Positions 47,010 through 53,717 of a stretch of 64,000 nt of DNA are shown one piece after another. Source of the stretch: Streptomyces scopuliridis RB72 (GTDB lineage: Bacteria > Actinomycetota > Actinomycetes > Streptomycetales > Streptomycetaceae); contig NZ_JOEI01000005.1 of the NCBI RefSeq assembly GCF_000718095.1, positions 496,001-560,000 of the forward strand, written 5' to 3'. The position numbers and the translations under genes were made by a program. Position 1 is the stretch's first letter. The number at the start of each line of letters is the position of its first letter. Under the pieces are notes generated by a model, which was not told the origin of the DNA, did no database searches, and saw only the letters and a list, made by a program, of their open reading frames with translations.

Positions 47010-47687
47010 TCAGTGCGCGGCGGCCTTCTGCGGGGTGGCCTCGCTCGGCCGGACGATGACGAAGCCGTCGCCCTGGAGCATCAGCTGGACGGCCTCGCCC
47101 GAGCCACCACGGATCATCGAGCCGACGGACTGCGAGCGGTGCAGCGAGGTGGAGAGCTGCGCGCTCCATCCGACGACCGCGTCGGTGTCGACGTACACCG
47201 GGGCCTGGCCCGTGACGGGGATCACTATGGGGTTGCCCTCGCATATGACGCCGAGCTTCCCGTAGCCGGTGAAGAGGCTGTTGAAGAGCCCGCCGCCGGT
47301 CATCCCGGCGCCCTTCACCGTCTTGATCTCGTACGAGAGCGTCGGGTCGAAACAGAGCACATTGCGGCCGTTGATGGTGAGCGCGTCGCCCTGCTCGATA
47401 TCGACGATGAAGCAGTTGGCGGCCTCCTGCGCGAACCACGCCTCGCCCTGGCCCTTGACGCTCATCAGCGGCAGGCCCTCGCCCGTGACGGCCCGCTTGA
47501 GCAGTCCCCCTATGCCCTGGCCCTTGCGTTCGAACTGGAGGCTGCCGCGGAAGGCGATCATGGATCCCTGCCGTGCGTACATCTCGCCTTGGACGGCGTA
47601 CTTGATCGATTTGGTGTTCTGCAGCGTCATCCCGGGGGCGGCGGCCGGCTGCGCCAGGTACTCGGCGGAAAAGAGATCGCTCTTCAT
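47010..47687 (-). CDS. AIM24 family protein
   Basis: 225 aa, beta-rich AIM24/DUF124 fold (MTLQNTKSIKYAVQGEMYARQGSMIAFRGSLQFERKG; GQGEAWFAQEAANCFIVDIEQGDALTINGRNVLCFD; GGLFNSLFTGYGKLGVICEGNPIVI). Bacterial members are of unknown role and some bind ligands at the membrane. Start ATG 47687 is chosen because GGGTGAG lies about 10 bases upstream; ATG 47696 is possible. Confidence 0.9.
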   Translation of the reverse strand: MKSDLFSAEYLAQPAAAPGMTLQNTKSIKYAVQGEMYARQGSMIAFRGSLQFERKGQGIGGLLKRAVTGEGLPLMSVKGQGEAWFAQEAANCFIVDIEQGDALTINGRNVLCFDPTLSYEIKTVKGAGMTGGGLFNSLFTGYGKLGVICEGNPIVIPVTGQAPVYVDTDAVVGWSAQLSTSLHRSQSVGSMIRGGSGEAVQLMLQGDGFVIVRPSEATPQKAAAH

Positions 47688-47774
47688 GCCGTGCATACTC
47701 ACCCGGACGCACCCATTCCGCCAAGAAAGGTTTGCCCAAGAAAGCAGGACCGGGGCTGCTGGCAGACTGGACCC

Positions 47775-48512
47775 GTGAGCAGTGACATCAGCGACCGCAG
47801 TGACCGCGTGCCCGACGGGACCTCCCGCGACGAGGCTCCCCAGTTCGTACTGCCGCTGGTGGTCCGGATCGAGAAGGCCGCGCCGCCCGCCCGTACCGAC
47901 GCCCTGGAGACGGCCGCCCGCGCGGTGCTCGTGATGCTCTCCGACGAGCGGTCGGTGGGCGAGGGCGAGTGGGCGCGGGCCATGCGGGACTGGCAGGACG
48001 CCCGGATCCGCAAGGTGGTACGGAGGGCGCGCGGCGCGGAGTGGCGCCGCGCCTCCGCGCTCCCCGGGCTCACGGTCCTGGGCGCGGGGCCCACGACGGA
48101 GACGGCGTCCACCGCCGAGGTACGCGTCTTCCCGCCCGTCCCGCTCGACGGCTGGCCCAAGGAGCTGGCCAAGCTCCAGGTCTCCGGCACCGAACTGGAC
48201 GACGCCGAGCCGCCGCCCGCACCGGACCCGGCGCTGCCCGTGCTCTGGATCGCTCCCGGCCTGGACATGTCGGCGGGCAAGGCGATGGCCCAGGCCGGGC
48301 ACGGCGCCCAACTCGCCTGGTGGGAGCTGTCGGAGACGGAGCGCAAGGCCTGGCGCGAGGCCGGCTTCCCGCTCGCCGTCCGTACCCCCGACGCGGGGCG
48401 CTGGCGCGAACTCACCGCCAGTGGACTGCCGGTGGTCCGTGATGCCGGATTCACGGAGATCGCGCCCGGCTCCTGCACCGTGGTCGCTGATCATCCGGCG
48501 CTGCGGAGCTGA
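47775..48512 (+). CDS. PTH2-type peptidyl-tRNA hydrolase-like protein
   Basis: 245 aa. The C-terminal half (LWIAPGLDMSAGKAMAQAGHGAQLAWWELSETERKAWREAGFPLAVRTPDAG ... VVRDAGFTEIAPGSCTVVA) is the PTH2 fold that releases peptides from peptidyl-tRNA; the N-terminal 120 residues are an actinobacterial addition of alpha/beta type. Catalytic activity is not assured. GTG 47775 has no ribosome site, which suggests a leaderless message. Confidence 0.85.
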   Translation: MSSDISDRSDRVPDGTSRDEAPQFVLPLVVRIEKAAPPARTDALETAARAVLVMLSDERSVGEGEWARAMRDWQDARIRKVVRRARGAEWRRASALPGLTVLGAGPTTETASTAEVRVFPPVPLDGWPKELAKLQVSGTELDDAEPPPAPDPALPVLWIAPGLDMSAGKAMAQAGHGAQLAWWELSETERKAWREAGFPLAVRTPDAGRWRELTASGLPVVRDAGFTEIAPGSCTVVADHPALRS

Positions 48513-48622
48513 ACACTCCGGCCGGGCCGTACGTATCTCCCGGTACCGCGAAGCGGGTTGAACAGCCGGTCAGGCCGGCGGTGGGTTCAGCGGTGTCGGA
48601 ATTCGGTTCGGGAGGCAGCACA

Positions 48623-49405
48623 TTGTTGCGACGCATCAACGGTACGGCGCTCATCATCGCGGCACTGGTCGTCACGGTCGGGGCCCTGGCCTTCCCCGTC
48701 TGGTCGTACGCCGACCGCTCCGGCACTGGTCAGGCGAACCTCAACGCGTCCAGTGTGGCCACCCAGTGGGGCCCGCTCTCCGCGACCGACCGCGATCTCC
48801 TGGTGAAGGTGCGGCTGGCGGGGCTCTGGGAGCTGCCGGCCGGGCAGCAGGCCATCGAGCGCGCACCCAGCCAGGCGATCAAGGAGTGCGGTGACCATCT
48901 GGTCGTCGGCCACACCGATCTCGACAAGCGGGCCCGCGATGTCGCGGCGAAGCTCGGGGTCGAGCTGCCGAACCAGCCGAACGAGCAGCAGCAGGGCTGG
49001 CTCAGGGAGTTGTCGGCGGCCACCGGCCAGGAGTACGAGCAGAAGTTCGCCAATCTGCTGCGCAATGCCCACGGCAAGGTCTTCGCGCTGATCGCGCAGG
49101 TCCGGCACACCACCAGGAACACGCTGATACGGCAGCTGGCGAGCGACGCCAACCAGACCGTCCTGGACCACATCACGATGCTGGAGGCCACCGGCATGGT
49201 CGACTTCGACGCGCTCGCCAACGAGGCGGCGGGCACCACGACGGCCAGCCCGACCGGACCGCCGCCCCCGAACGGGAATCTGCCGCCCGCGCCGGACGCC
49301 CTGGCGCCCAGCGGCAATGACACCTTCACCTCCCGGCCCTCCACCCAGCCGGGCGCCCCGACGGCGATCAACACCGACCGGCCGGCGCCGGGGACCGACC
49401 CGTAG
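48623..49405 (+). CDS. DUF4142 (ferritin-like) secreted protein
   Basis: About 260 aa. The start is TTG 48623 or 48626 (GGGAGG lies 8-10 bases upstream); GTG 48593 is less likely. A signal/membrane segment (LRRINGTALIIAALVVTVGALAFPVW) is followed by a helical DUF4142 domain (LSATDRDLLVKVRLAGLWELPAGQQAIERAPSQAIKECGDHLVVGHTDLDKRARDVAAKLG). The Pro/Thr-rich tail (from about 205) is disordered. Function is unknown. Confidence 0.85.
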   Translation: MLRRINGTALIIAALVVTVGALAFPVWSYADRSGTGQANLNASSVATQWGPLSATDRDLLVKVRLAGLWELPAGQQAIERAPSQAIKECGDHLVVGHTDLDKRARDVAAKLGVELPNQPNEQQQGWLRELSAATGQEYEQKFANLLRNAHGKVFALIAQVRHTTRNTLIRQLASDANQTVLDHITMLEATGMVDFDALANEAAGTTTASPTGPPPPNGNLPPAPDALAPSGNDTFTSRPSTQPGAPTAINTDRPAPGTDP

Positions 49406-49574: not shown

Positions 49575-50891
49575 ATGAACGACACACCACAGCTGGGGAT
49601 CGGCATCGGCTGGCGCCCGGAGATCGCGGACACGGTCGAGGCGCTGTCCGGTGTCGACTGGGTCGAGGCCGTCGCGGAGAATCTCTGCCCCGGCCATCTG
49701 CCCGACTCGCTGGTACGGCTGCGGGAGCGCGGCGTGACCGTCGTACCGCACGGGGTCTCGCTCGGCCTCGGCGGAGCGGACCGTCCGGACGCGCGGCGGC
49801 TCGCGGATCTCGCGGAGCGCGCCGAGGCCCTCGGCTCCCCTCTGGTCACCGAACACATCGCGTTCGTACGGGCCGGCGGGGCGCTGACCGCGTCCCCCGT
49901 CCTGGAAGCCGGTCATCTGCTGCCGGTCCCGCGCACCCGGGACGCCCTGCGCGTGCTCTGCGAGAACATACGCATCGCCCAGGACTCGCTGCCCGTGCCG
50001 CTCGCCGTGGAGAACATCGCCGCGCTGATCCGCTGGCCGGACGAGGAGATGAGCGAGGGTCAGTTCCTCGCGGAGCTGGTCGGGCGCACGGGCGTGCGGC
50101 TGCTGATCGATGTCGCCAATCTGCACACCAACCAGGTGAACCGGGGCGAGGACCCGGCGAAGGCCCTGGACGAACTGCCGGTCGAGGCCATCGCGTACGT
50201 CCATGTCGCGGGCGGGACCGAGCGCGACGGTGTCTGGCACGACACCCACGCGCACCCGGTCACCGCGCCGGTGCTGGACATACTGGCCGAGCTGCGCGCC
50301 CGGGTCGCCCCGCCGGGCGTCCTGCTGGAACGGGACGACGACTTCCCGCCCGCCGCCGAGCTGGCCGGTGAACTCACCACGATCCGGGAGACGATCACGG
50401 CCGCGGCGGCCGTCGCGTCTCCACGCCCGCGGAAGGGGGCGGGGGCAAGGGGTGCGGAAGAGCGCGAGGCGGGCGACACCGACGCCGCCCGCGGCCGGCT
50501 CGCGCTGAGCGAGGCCGCCCTGCTCTCCTCGCTGGTCGCCGGTACGCCCGTACCCGAGGGGTTCGATCCGCGGCGGCTGCGGGTCCAGAGCCGCGCCCTC
50601 GCCGCCAAGCGCGCCGGGGTCGTGGCCAAGGTCGCCCCCGAGCTGCCGGAGATCCTCGGCGAGGGCTTCCGCCCGGCGTTCCTGGCGTACGCCGCGCACA
50701 CACCCATGCGCGCCGGATACCGCCGTGACGCGCTCGACTTCGCCGAGAGTCTGCTGATCGAGGGGCGCCCCGAGGACTCCGCCGCCCGGCGGCGGCTGAC
50801 TCTCTGGTGGCGTGAGCGGGCCGCCTCGCGACCGCCGCGCCGGGCGACCCGTCTCATCCGCGTGGCCCGTGCCGCGCTCGTGGGGAGGTGA
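49575..50891 (+). CDS. MNIO (DUF692) family protein fused to a C-terminal helical domain
   Basis: 438 aa. Residues 1-275 are a DUF692 barrel opening with [13 protein letters not shown]. Candidate iron ligands are H59 (VPHG), E93-H94 (TEH), E146-N147 (VENI), D179, N182, H184 (DVANLH), H210, D223/H225/H227 (WHDTHAH) and E252 (LLERDDD), all intact. MNIO enzymes use two or three irons and O2 to modify cysteines in peptides (MbnB, TglH, ChrH). The C-terminal part from about 308 resembles a fused helper domain; that is inference. GGAGGGGGA precedes the ATG. The next gene begins 6 bases after the stop and encodes a membrane protein with a Cys-rich tail. Confidence 0.9.
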
Positions 50892-50897
50892 GGGACG

Positions 50898-51890
50898 GTG
50901 ACGGCCTTCCTTCTCAGCGCGGTCCCTCTCGCGGTGGCCGTCTCCTCCGTCCTGCTGATCACGGGGGTGGTCCGGTCGCGCGGCGGGGTGACGGGCACGC
51001 CCGCCGTCCATGACGTGTGGGAGGCGGCGTTCCTCGGCGGCGGTCCCGGCAGGGTCGTGGACGCGGCGCTCGCCGGGATGCGGGAGGACGGCCGAGTGGC
51101 CATCGGCGGCCCCGGCATCGTCGCCGTACTCCAGCCGACCGCCCGTCACCCGGTGGAGCGGGCCGTGCTCCAGGAACACGCCATGGCGCCCAGCGGCGCT
51201 CTGCACGCGCTCCGCCTCGCGGTGATGCGCGCCCCGGCCGTACAGCAGGTGGGCGACGCGCTCGCGGCGCGCGGGCTGGTGGTGCCCCGCGCGCGGACGC
51301 GGCCGTGGCGGACGTGGGGCGTCACCCAGGGGGTGCTCTGCTTCGTGGCCCTGCCCGTGTCGTTCATCGCGGGCGCGCTGGCGACCTTCGGATCCCCGGG
51401 GTCCGGTCCCGGCGGGATGTGGGCGTTCTCCCTGCTGCCGGTCCTGTTCGGGGGCGCGATCGCGGGGTTCGTCTGCGCGGCGTTCGCCGGGCGGCGGATC
51501 ACCGGAGCGGGGCGGCGGGCGCTGCGCGACTTCGTCGCCGGGCTCGCGTACACCGGCGCCTCGGCGGCGCACCAGGTCGCGGCGCACGGGGTGGCGGGGG
51601 TGCCGGACCCGGAGCTGCGGGGGCAGTTGCGCACCGCCGCGCGGATGCGGCCGGGGCGTGACTTCGCACCGGCGGCGCATATGTCCGCCGCCGTGGTGGC
51701 CTGGTGCTCCGGCGCGGAGCCCGGCTCGGGGAGTGGATGCGGCGGTTCGGGGTCGGGCTGTGGCGCGAGCTCCTGCGGAGGCGGAGGTTCCAGCGCTTCC
51801 AGCGGTTCCGGCGGGGACGGGGGCGGCGGGGGCGGCAGCAGTTGCGGTGGAGGCGGTGGAGGCGGCTGTGGGGGCGGCGGGGGCACGTAA
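50898..51890 (+). CDS. TIGR04222-type membrane protein with Cys/Gly/Ser-rich tail
   Basis: 330-aa membrane protein. It has an N-terminal hydrophobic segment (LLSAVPLAVAVSSVLLITGVV), a cytoplasmic region with winged-helix-like sequence (residues 37-127), and two membrane segments (about 142-166 and 174-196). From about residue 271 the tail is Gly/Ser-rich, with Cys at 270, 281, 288, 293, 316 and 324 and nothing hydrophobic. TIGR04222 proteins commonly end in such tails. Coupled to the MNIO gene (6-base gap, GAGGTGAGGGACG upstream of GTG 50898). The tail is the likely substrate of the enzyme; that is inference. Confidence 0.85.
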   Translation: MTAFLLSAVPLAVAVSSVLLITGVVRSRGGVTGTPAVHDVWEAAFLGGGPGRVVDAALAGMREDGRVAIGGPGIVAVLQPTARHPVERAVLQEHAMAPSGALHALRLAVMRAPAVQQVGDALAARGLVVPRARTRPWRTWGVTQGVLCFVALPVSFIAGALATFGSPGSGPGGMWAFSLLPVLFGGAIAGFVCAAFAGRRITGAGRRALRDFVAGLAYTGASAAHQVAAHGVAGVPDPELRGQLRTAARMRPGRDFAPAAHMSAAVVAWCSGAEPGSGSGCGGSGSGCGASSCGGGGSSASSGSGGDGGGGGGSSCGGGGGGGCGGGGGT

Positions 51891-51931: not shown

Positions 51932-51970
51932 CGTACGGCCACCCCTCAGACCCTTCGGAGTGGCCGTACG
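51932..51970 (+). terminator. Hairpin terminator after the MNIO/TIGR04222 unit
   Basis: Perfect 11-bp stem (CGTACGGCCAC at 51932-51942 with GTGGCCGTACG at 51960-51970), 17-base loop, 42 bases after the stop. It separates the two-gene unit from the peptidase. Confidence 0.65.
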
Positions 51971-52085
51971 ACGCATCGGGGTCATTGCGACCGACACCGC
52001 GCACGGATGCTTGTCCGGCCCCGCCGCTCTGCCGACCCTCTGTCTGCGGATCATCCTCCGGTCCGTACGCACCGAAGGGAAAGCG

Positions 52086-53717
52086 ATGAGAGCAGTAGCG
52101 AAATACGGGGCTCTGACCACCCTCGGCTCCGTGGTCCTGTCGGCCCTCGTCGCCGCCCCCGCGGACGGGGCCGACGCCACCGGCGACACCACCACCAGCG
52201 CGGCCCGCGGTGTCGTCCTCGCCGCCCAGCGCGCCGCCACCGACGGGATCACCTTCGGCGCGTGCCCCAAGGCCGAGCAGCTGCCCGACCCCATCGCCTG
52301 CGGCACGGTCGAGGTCCCGCTCGACTACACCGAGCCCGACGGCCGGACGATCAGCCTCACCGTCAGCCGTGTGCCCGCGAGCGGGAGTCCGGAGCAGCGG
52401 CAGGGCGCGCTCGTCTTCAACCCCGGCGGCCCCGGCGCCTCCGGCATGTACTTCCCGATGGCCGCCGAGGTGCCCCACTGGAAGCGGATCGCCGAGGCGT
52501 ACGACCTCATCGGCTACGCCCCTCGCGGAGTGGGCCGCTCCGCCCCGCTCTCCTGCGGGGATCCGGCGGACTTCGGCAAAGCCCCGACGCAGTCCCCGGT
52601 CCACCCCTCCGAGTCGTACAAGCGGGAGCGGATCGCCGAGGCCAAGGCGTACGCGCGGGGCTGCGCCAACGCCGCCGGCCCCGCGCTCCCCCACTACAAC
52701 TCGCTGAACAACGCCCGCGATCTGGATGTGCTGCGCGCGGCGCTCGGCGAGCAGAAGCTGACCTTCATGGGCGCCTCGTACGGGACCTACTTCGGCGCGC
52801 TCTACGCGACGCTCTTCCCCTCGCACGTGGGCCGGATGGTCTTCGACTCCGTCGTGAACCCGGACCCCGAGCAGATCTGGTACCGCAACAACCTCGACCA
52901 GTCCGTCGCGTTCGAGCGGCGCTGGGAGGACTTCCGCACCTGGGTGGCCAAGCATGACGCGACGTACCACCTGGGCACCGACGCCGAGGCGGTGCGGCAG
53001 AGTTACGAGAGGGTACGCGCCGGGGTCGCGCACAAGCCGGCCGGCGGGAAGGTCGGGCCGGGCCAGCTGCAGGCGGCGATGCTCGGAGCCGGTTACTACG
53101 ACGACTACTGGCCGACGCGCGCCTCGGCCCTCTCCGAGTATCTGAAGGGCAATCAGAAGCCGCTGATCGACCAGGCCGCGCCCCGTCCGGCCGCCGCCGC
53201 GGAGAGCGAGAACGCCACGGCGGTCTATACCGCGGTCGAGTGCAATGACGCGCCCTGGCCCACGGACTTCGCGGTGTGGGACCGCGACAACACCGCGCTG
53301 GCACAGCGCGCGCCGTTCGAGACCTGGGACAACGCCTGGATGAATCTGCCGTGCGCCTACTGGACCGGGCCCCGGCAGCGGCCGACAGAGGTCCGCGCCC
53401 TGCCGGGCCAGTTGCCCCCGACGCTGATCCTGGCCGCGGAGCGGGACGCGGCGACGCCGTACGAGGGGGCGGTGGAGCTGCACAAGCGGCTGGCCGGTTC
53501 GGCCCTGGTGACCGAACGGGACGCCGGTACGCACGGGGTGTCGGGCGGCGGCAACGCCTGCGTCACCGCCTATGTGGAGGACTACCTGCTGCACGGAAAG
53601 GCGCCGGTGCGGCGCGCGGATTGCGCGCCGCACGCGGAGCCGGACCCGGCGTCGGCGAAACCGGCCGACAGGCTGGTCGACCTGCGCAGGAGGCACAATC
53701 CGGGGGCTCGTTTCTGA
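52086..53717 (+). CDS. Secreted alpha/beta-hydrolase peptidase (tripeptidyl aminopeptidase type)
   Basis: 543 aa with a signal peptide (MRAVAKYGALTTLGSVVLSALVAAPADGADA). The catalytic Ser lies in GASYGTYFGALYA, the Asp in AAERDAATPYEG and the His in GTHGVSGGG. The N-terminal cap-like block CGTVEVPLDYTEPDGRTISL and the oxyanion segment NPGGPGASG are typical of the Streptomyces SlpD/Tap group. It clips N-terminal tripeptides from exported proteins. The start ATG 52086 has GAAGGGAAA upstream. Confidence 0.94.
   Translation: MRAVAKYGALTTLGSVVLSALVAAPADGADATGDTTTSAARGVVLAAQRAATDGITFGACPKAEQLPDPIACGTVEVPLDYTEPDGRTISLTVSRVPASGSPEQRQGALVFNPGGPGASGMYFPMAAEVPHWKRIAEAYDLIGYAPRGVGRSAPLSCGDPADFGKAPTQSPVHPSESYKRERIAEAKAYARGCANAAGPALPHYNSLNNARDLDVLRAALGEQKLTFMGASYGTYFGALYATLFPSHVGRMVFDSVVNPDPEQIWYRNNLDQSVAFERRWEDFRTWVAKHDATYHLGTDAEAVRQSYERVRAGVAHKPAGGKVGPGQLQAAMLGAGYYDDYWPTRASALSEYLKGNQKPLIDQAAPRPAAAAESENATAVYTAVECNDAPWPTDFAVWDRDNTALAQRAPFETWDNAWMNLPCAYWTGPRQRPTEVRALPGQLPPTLILAAERDAATPYEGAVELHKRLAGSALVTERDAGTHGVSGGGNACVTAYVEDYLLHGKAPVRRADCAPHAEPDPASAKPADRLVDLRRRHNPGARF

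Follow-up and report, generated by a model that had tools for sequence, protein, structure and literature searches.

The 64,000-nucleotide stretch of Streptomyces scopuliridis RB72 analysed here, which we call the window (contig NZ_JOEI01000005.1, positions 496,001 to 560,000), encodes an enzyme of the MNIO (DUF692) family and, after a gap of 6 bp (from the last base of the MNIO stop codon at 50891 to the GTG start at 50898), a TIGR04222 membrane protein that ends in a cysteine-bearing glycine/serine tail. The features of this pair, in window coordinates, are as follows.

49575..50891, + strand: MNIO (DUF692) enzyme with fused C-terminal partner domain, 438 amino acids (PF05114, E 1.8e-78)
49575..50411, + strand: MNIO TIM barrel, residues 1-279
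50475..50888, + strand: fused partner domain, residues 301-438 (PF26136, 'SCO6045-like C-terminal domain')
50898..51890, + strand: TIGR04222 membrane protein, 330 amino acids, GTG start (TIGR04222, 1.8e-35)
50901..50981, + strand: transmembrane (TM) helix 1, residues 2-28, predicted N-out
51015..51269, + strand: soluble helical domain between TM helices 1 and 2, residues 40-124, predicted cytosolic (AlphaFold2 model; DUF2207 homology)
51288..51488, + strand: TM helices 2 and 3, residues 131-165 and 171-197, with the hairpin loop predicted outside (AlphaFold2 model, lysine plus arginine (K+R) counts)
51681..51887, + strand: disordered Gly/Ser tail with six cysteines, residues 262-330, predicted cytosolic, candidate modified region

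An initial annotation, made from the letters of the window alone, had described this gene spacing, an MNIO whose iron ligands are intact and which carries an additional domain at its C-terminus, and a Gly/Ser tail with six cysteines; each of these descriptions holds. The enzyme belongs to the MNIO family both by its PF05114 match and by a TIM barrel with the conserved His/Asp/Glu multi-iron site, and all 11 residues listed in that annotation are present (H59, E93, H94, E146, D179, H184, H210, D223, H225, H227 and E252). Eight of them (H59, H94, E146, D179, H210, D223, H225 and E252) are invariant in 68/68 related MNIOs, E93 is kept in 65 of the 68, and H184 and H227 are conserved in fewer than 95%. 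The catalytic site is intact. The solved structures nearest to the AlphaFold2 model of the enzyme, by VIA-align and Foldseek, are TglH and MbnB, in alignments that cover essentially the barrel (residues 5-282), and residues 302-437 form a separate six-helix domain (mean pLDDT 91.8, lower toward the end). The membrane protein scores 122.7 bits against NCBIfam TIGR04222, for which the curated cut-off is 43, and so belongs to that family. Its cysteines lie at positions 148, 193, 270, 281, 288, 293, 316 and 324, the last six of them in the tail, and its final 61 residues comprise 34 Gly, 14 Ser and 6 Cys.

Comparisons with related loci draw on two samples. A search for TIGR04222 gave matches above cut-off in 106 of 394 genomes of the class and in 129 of 150 genomes of the genus. 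With the window, 120 fetched regions (each at most about 12 kb) make up 121 regions, of which 120 contain a TIGR04222 open reading frame (ORF) by a hidden Markov model (HMM) built for this analysis, 132 such ORFs in total; a full MNIO is present in 68. Of the 106 class genomes with TIGR04222 above cut-off, 104 are in the genome table, which leaves out G590, whose region (L175) has no match to the purpose-built HMM, and G620, whose region was not fetched. One region (L173, G603), whose MNIO is a fragment lying at the edge of a contig, was scored as being without MNIO. The association tests reported below are uncorrected for relatedness and ignore phylogeny.

The C-terminal domain had been suggested to replace the separate partner protein of other MNIOs, and the sampled loci bear this out. 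A C-terminal extension of 163-321 amino acids is found in 38 of the 68 MNIOs, and the other 30 stop 4-22 amino acids past the barrel. An iterated profile of the extension finds a separate ORF beside the MNIO in 30/30 unfused loci and in 0/38 fused ones (Fisher p 6e-20); no locus among the 68 has both a fused and a separate partner, and none has neither. Regions that lack a full MNIO number 53, and the sole match to the partner domain among them is weak (21 residues in L180, E 4.5e-4). The fused domain is the dedicated partner of the MNIO, that is, a PME by role. On the MNIO tree the fused/separate label requires at least six changes, which means that fusion or fission occurred repeatedly. Precomputed PF26136 matches fall on at least 120 fused and at least 75 stand-alone proteins among those listed, and the name 'SCO6045-like C-terminal domain' appears in the source names of the stand-alone ones. 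Among 20 further MNIO loci the partner domain was seen in 15; it was not seen in L206-L208 (bufferin-type, L206 with DUF2063), in L218, where genes are incompletely called, or in L223. One of these loci, L206 (3170-4838, Nocardiopsis gilva by name), pairs a bufferin-type MNIO with a true DUF2063 partner and has a 223-amino-acid protein with 10 cysteines upstream.

What family this partner belongs to is less clear-cut. Pfam DUF2063 has no match in the window MNIO, so the partner is not of PME-type 1, the type by which bufferin and oxazolin (captophorin) systems are recognized, and just 1 of 246 class genomes has a DUF2063 match that reaches the cut-off. A sequence profile of the partner domain compared with PDB chains gave five weak matches only (E 0.27 to 1.3; FlgJ, OTX2 and a transaminase). 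A relation between the partner domain and DUF2063 is only suggestive, as judged from sequence profiles: hhalign gives a probability of 36 (E 3.7e-4 over 88 columns), which is weak, and Pfam DUF2063 matches 3 of 51 partner-domain members with a best E of 0.093.

The tail and the enzyme go together across genomes. We classed a tail as Cys-rich ('CysGS') when it has three or more Cys and when G+S make up at least 45% of it. Among the 104 genomes with TIGR04222, a Cys-rich tail accompanies an MNIO in 61; the tail occurs alone in 1, the MNIO alone in 17, and 25 have neither (Fisher p 7e-12), so that the pair is conserved beyond chance. In 43 MNIO/tail-gene pairs, those with gene calls recovered for both partners, the two genes lie within 20 bp of each other or overlap in 25 and are on opposite strands in none. 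Where a Cys-rich tail and an MNIO share a region (57 tails), Cys mostly precedes Gly and follows Gly or Ser. Two further loci from a TIGR04222-protein search, which stand outside these counts, both have an MNIO, a separate partner and a Cys-tailed TIGR04222 protein. In five loci (L099, L107, L109, L121 and L125) two adjacent TIGR04222 genes follow the MNIO, the first Cys-rich and the second short-tailed with 0 or 1 Cys.

Fifteen of the 17 genomes that have an MNIO without a Cys-rich TIGR04222 tail are Streptomyces, and for 13 of these 15 the MNIO lies within the fetched region; those 13 enzymes form one clade of the MNIO tree (support 99/94) with the eight ligand positions intact. One whole Streptomyces clade keeps only Cys-less TIGR04222 near the MNIO. 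Loss of MNIO ligands paralleling loss of tail cysteines was looked for and not seen, and when the Cys-less Streptomyces loci were scanned over about 5 kb for Cys/G/S tails, one spurious ORF came up at the first thresholds and none at a second set. These exceptions led the search to a second carrier of the tail, a one-TM mini-protein. The copy in the genome that contains the window is 110 amino acids long, lies at G000:C16:45624-45953 (L298, L240) and is unlinked to the MNIO. The minis of other Streptomyces (L229-L291) are likewise unlinked to the MNIO, and their neighbours are conserved across the 15 regions compared. The flanking genes we take to be an aminotransferase gene on one side and DUF2617/spermidine-synthase-like genes on the other, the mini gene lying upstream of DUF2617 and the gene for a spermidine-synthase-like membrane protein. 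The 57 Streptomyces minis counted are 76-136 amino acids long; a WW motif (SWWAG-like) occurs in 56 of the 57, and the typical ending is SCGGG...CGGG (SCGGG...CGGGS). None of the mini-proteins scanned matches an NCBIfam or Pfam model above cut-off, and a literature search gave nothing linking 'chorion class high-cysteine' with Streptomyces and no mention of SCO6046.

The distribution of the minis was examined in 80 Streptomyces genomes from the class and genus samples, 69 with MNIO and 11 without. The 69 comprise 37 class-sample genomes (including G784, with a weak MNIO match only) and 32 genus-sample genomes, mostly in few contigs. A profile search gave minis in 54 genomes, 53 of them real after inspection (G870 was false), and a synteny search for minis missed by the profile covered the 18 MNIO-bearing genomes without one and all 11 MNIO-less genomes. 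Minis with three or more tail Cys are present in 63/69 genomes with MNIO and in 2/11 without (p 1e-6); Cys were first counted over whole profile-matched proteins, and a recount restricted to the part after the TM helix gave identical figures, 63/69 and 2/11. Among the 11 MNIO-less genomes, 5 have no mini, 4 have two-Cys forms and 2 have Cys-rich ones. Every Streptomyces genome that combines an MNIO with only Cys-less TIGR04222 has a mini with at least 3 Cys (15/15). The initial annotation had named the loss of tail cysteines in most MNIO-bearing homologues as the outcome that would count against it; instead, 61 genomes keep them and 17 lack them, and 15 of those 17, all Streptomyces, encode the tail on an unlinked mini.

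Minis also occur next to the enzyme. Six of the nine loci of family f90 in which the MNIO lies away from TIGR04222 have a mini beside the MNIO (L215, L216, L217, L218, L222 and L224); these proteins are 83-119 amino acids long, with a single N-terminal TM helix followed by a basic stretch and a G/S/H/C tail. A seventh, L225, has a different Cys-tailed ORF upstream. The enzyme goes with the tail, not with the anchor. Several mini tails also carry His clusters, and in L271 and L315 Ser stands instead of Gly between the Cys (SSSSCSSSSC...), from which Gly itself is possibly non-essential. At four mini loci of MNIO-less Streptomyces (L327, L338, L339 and L341) the two-Cys tail protein ends in a C-terminal Cys (...GGGGGC or similar), an ending that differs from the pattern of most MNIO-bearing genomes.

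The tail proteins could instead anchor the MNIO to the membrane or supply it with metal, and its true target would then be another protein or a small molecule. MNIOs with intact ligands do persist in the Streptomyces clade whose neighbouring TIGR04222 proteins lack tail Cys, and two genomes with MNIO, G870 and G776, have no detected tail protein with at least 3 Cys. However, the Cys-rich mini found elsewhere in 15/15 genomes (that clade and two more), the absence of the mini or its two-Cys state in nine of the MNIO-less Streptomyces just described, and the fact that the Cys tail, and not the anchor, is what the TIGR04222 and mini carriers have in common make this explanation rather unlikely.

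We predict that both kinds of tail are cytosolic, opposite to the published placement, from the modelled helices, the charge pattern and homology to DUF2207. The AlphaFold2 model of the TIGR04222 protein (pLDDT 82) has long helices at residues 2-28, 131-165 and 171-197, whereas a further helix at 223-234 has 12 residues and is too short to span the membrane. Over 68 aligned TIGR04222 proteins the hairpin averages 0.46 K+R, its two flanks 2.6 and 2.9, and the hairpin is lower than both flanks in 51 of the 68; for the window protein an odd number of helices and the charge pattern predict a C-terminus inside. In the minis, K/R residues are more numerous after the helix than before it in 57/57 (mean 6.5 versus 0.2). 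TIGR04222 and the C-terminal region of DUF2207 are homologous (hhalign probability 97, E 5e-11). Comparing the fold of the TIGR04222 model with PDB structures gave nothing convincing (best E 0.32). The proposal that the tail is held on the membrane gains support.

The same enzyme could act on the same substrate with the tail then exported, either through a fourth membrane segment or by post-translational translocation, so that it binds metal outside in the manner of a bufferin. This is the published view: on the basis of TM topology and AlphaFold2 models, Antoine et al. 2025 (PMC12452194) deem the tails periplasmic, outside the membrane. Ten of the 68 aligned proteins do have a hydrophobic fourth segment (19-residue mean of at least 1.6), and their tails would face outward; in 17 of the 68 the hairpin is not below both flanks in K/R. 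In the window protein, however, the fourth segment reaches a 19-residue hydropathy of at most 0.59 and its helix is the 12-residue one noted above, and the odd helix count, the charges and the inward orientation predicted by charge for all 57 minis point the other way. We regard export as unlikely.

The intact catalytic site, the identity of the partner domain, the co-occurrence of tail Cys with MNIO and the mini-proteins are computational results; the topology, the modification, the chemistry and the function are what we infer. On the explanation that we consider the best, and probable, the 438-amino-acid protein would be a self-contained maturase that acts on cytosolic, membrane-tethered tails, its MNIO barrel being joined covalently to a partner that is separate in related enzymes. 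The substrate would be the disordered, G/S-C-G-rich tail of membrane-tethered proteins, in cis that of the TIGR04222 protein of the next gene and in trans that of the 110-amino-acid one-helix protein encoded elsewhere in the genome. With the tails on the cytosolic face, a cytosolic enzyme would have access to them and would modify them where they remain, making leader removal and export unnecessary.

The chemistry is suggested by better-known relatives. MNIO-partner pairs convert Cys of bufferins and oxazolin to copper-binding 5-thiooxazoles (PMC12452194, PMC12668002, PMC13419390), and by analogy the tail Cys would become thiooxazole-like ligands; most likely they are oxidised in place into metal-binding groups. 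The product would be a fixed multi-site buffer, probably for copper, or else a device for thiol/redox chemistry, on the membrane's inner face, where a part in handling metals or thiols would fit. In the data available from PMC4991794, SCO6045 is up 3.0-fold with H2O2 in the wild type, among cysteine-biosynthesis genes, and is deregulated without HbpS-SenS-SenR. We take SCO6045 to be the fused MNIO of S. coelicolor because PF26136 bears its name.

Several observations weigh against this explanation, beside the outward-facing fourth segments, the weak DUF2063 relation and the uncorrected tests already given. First, some genomes break the pattern: two MNIO-less Streptomyces, G491 and G403, both fragmented drafts, carry a Cys-rich mini, and G683 has a Cys-rich TIGR04222 tail without MNIO. 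Second, in some MNIO-bearing genomes and loci one or other tail carrier was not found or has few Cys. No mini was found by profile or synteny in G855, G891 and G870, of which the first two have Cys in TIGR04222 and the third has its locus near a contig end; the minis of G776, G784 and G839 have two Cys only; no tail was found adjoining the MNIO in the f90 loci L214 and L219; and G681 and G568, which are not Streptomyces and in which minis were not searched for, have an MNIO and no Cys-rich TIGR04222 tail. Finally, the tail is a candidate for modification by the MNIO on the strength of sequence patterns, and the metal role is argued by analogy.

The tails might also be unmodified thiol or His/Cys metal sponges, associated with the MNIO through shared ancestry or genome content only. 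DUF2207 membrane proteins share the homologous region of soluble domain and TM hairpin and likewise end in a Gly/Ser-rich tail of low complexity; they differ in having an additional N-terminal DUF2207 domain and 0 Cys in the five tails seen, so such tails do occur without Cys, and the lack of correction for relatedness leaves room for a shared-ancestry effect. Against this stand the adjacent or overlapping genes, the fused partner and the way the carrier changes while the MNIO is kept, and we consider unmodified sponges very unlikely. The maturase explanation can be extended, more tentatively and at somewhat less than even confidence, to a system widespread among actinomycetes, whose MNIO, with its partner built in, would rewrite, from the cytosol, the tail Cys of resident membrane proteins with interchangeable anchors (three-helix TIGR04222 or one-helix minis, linked or unlinked), maturing them in place and not as a released peptide into a metal/redox buffer at the inner face.

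Although the initial annotation presented the pairing as a possible new system, this part of it does not stand. According to Antoine et al. 2025 (PMC12452194), there are >3,500 TIGR04222 proteins, with frequent MNIO linkage and Ser/Gly tails with Cys, and subsets of them are proposed as MNIO substrates; both the pairing and the tail-as-substrate idea are thus already published. The same source reports that more than one quarter of TIGR04222 proteins lack C-proximal Cys, that one third of TIGR04222 genomes lack MNIO, and that PME-type 2 partners are predicted in at least 10% of clusters, many clusters seemingly having no partner gene. The locus described here shares with those clusters the enzyme family, the membrane protein, the tail type and the gene order, except that a DUF4142 gene intervenes; it departs from them in that a partner is present in 68/68 sampled loci and the tails are predicted cytosolic. 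The built-in partner, the inward-facing tail and the tiny tail-bearing membrane proteins look new. The main-text passages of PMC12452194 consulted here mention neither an MNIO-partner fusion nor one-TM tail proteins, although the very small proteins that it calls 'adjamnio-V' could belong to the second kind.

Comparison with other MNIO systems sharpens these differences. Bufferins and oxazolin/captophorins (BufABC, HvfABC) likewise use an MNIO and a partner on Cys of repeated motifs, there binding copper via thiooxazoles, but their precursors have Sec signal peptides and their partners are of PME-type 1 (DUF2063-RRE), whereas here we find a resident membrane protein and a fused partner without a Pfam DUF2063 match. 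PME-type 2 partners, marked by a structural relation to NGO1945/TglI without the DUF2063 signature, are a possible family for the domain: as described in PMC12452194, they too are helical, have no Pfam DUF2063 match and are encoded beside the MNIO in actinomycetes, with examples that are 115 and 158 residues long. The difference is that in our Streptomyces and family f90 loci the partner is often the MNIO's own C-terminal domain. MovX and ChrH, which PMC13419390 gives as exceptions to the separate-partner rule, are also single-chain MNIOs with an added domain; going by their descriptions (PMC12452194, PMC13419390), they are set apart by the nature of that domain, a winged-helix/RRE in MovX and a domain of unknown function in ChrH. 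PMC13419390 further reports that joining HvfB artificially to the N-terminus of its partner HvfC gives higher activity than co-expressing the two proteins; the actinomycete fused MNIOs look like a natural version of this fusion in the same order.

These results offer an answer to a published open question, namely how an MNIO linked to TIGR04222 can work when no partner gene is visible: the sampled loci do contain the partner, either fused or as a short neighbouring ORF. Natural single-chain MNIO-partner enzymes have the format that others engineered in the HvfBC fusion, and the predicted topology gives reason to expect MNIO chemistry on resident membrane proteins at the cytosolic face. The small size of the Streptomyces minis makes the modification directly testable. 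An MNIO match is present in 141 of the 150 Streptomyces genomes searched, so the process would be near-core physiology of the genus.

The genes on either side of the pair, again in window coordinates, are the following.

47775..48512, + strand: PTH2-like protein, 245 amino acids (PF01981, 3e-8)
48581..49405, + strand: DUF4142 protein, between the PTH2-like gene and the MNIO gene (PF13628, 1.5e-19)
51960-53717, + strand: TAP-like alpha/beta hydrolase, downstream of the TIGR04222 gene

The PTH2-like gene matches in position the published 'adjamnio-II', which Table 2 of PMC12452194 gives in the order 'Adjamnio-II (peptidyl-tRNA hydrolase) - MNIO - TIGR04222' and for which that source names PF01195. 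Its family is present in 9/15 Cys-tail and 10/15 Cys-less Streptomyces loci. An AIM24-family gene (47013-47696, - strand) occurs in 9/15 Streptomyces loci with a Cys-tailed TIGR04222 and in 0/15 with a Cys-less one, and may be a mere clade marker.

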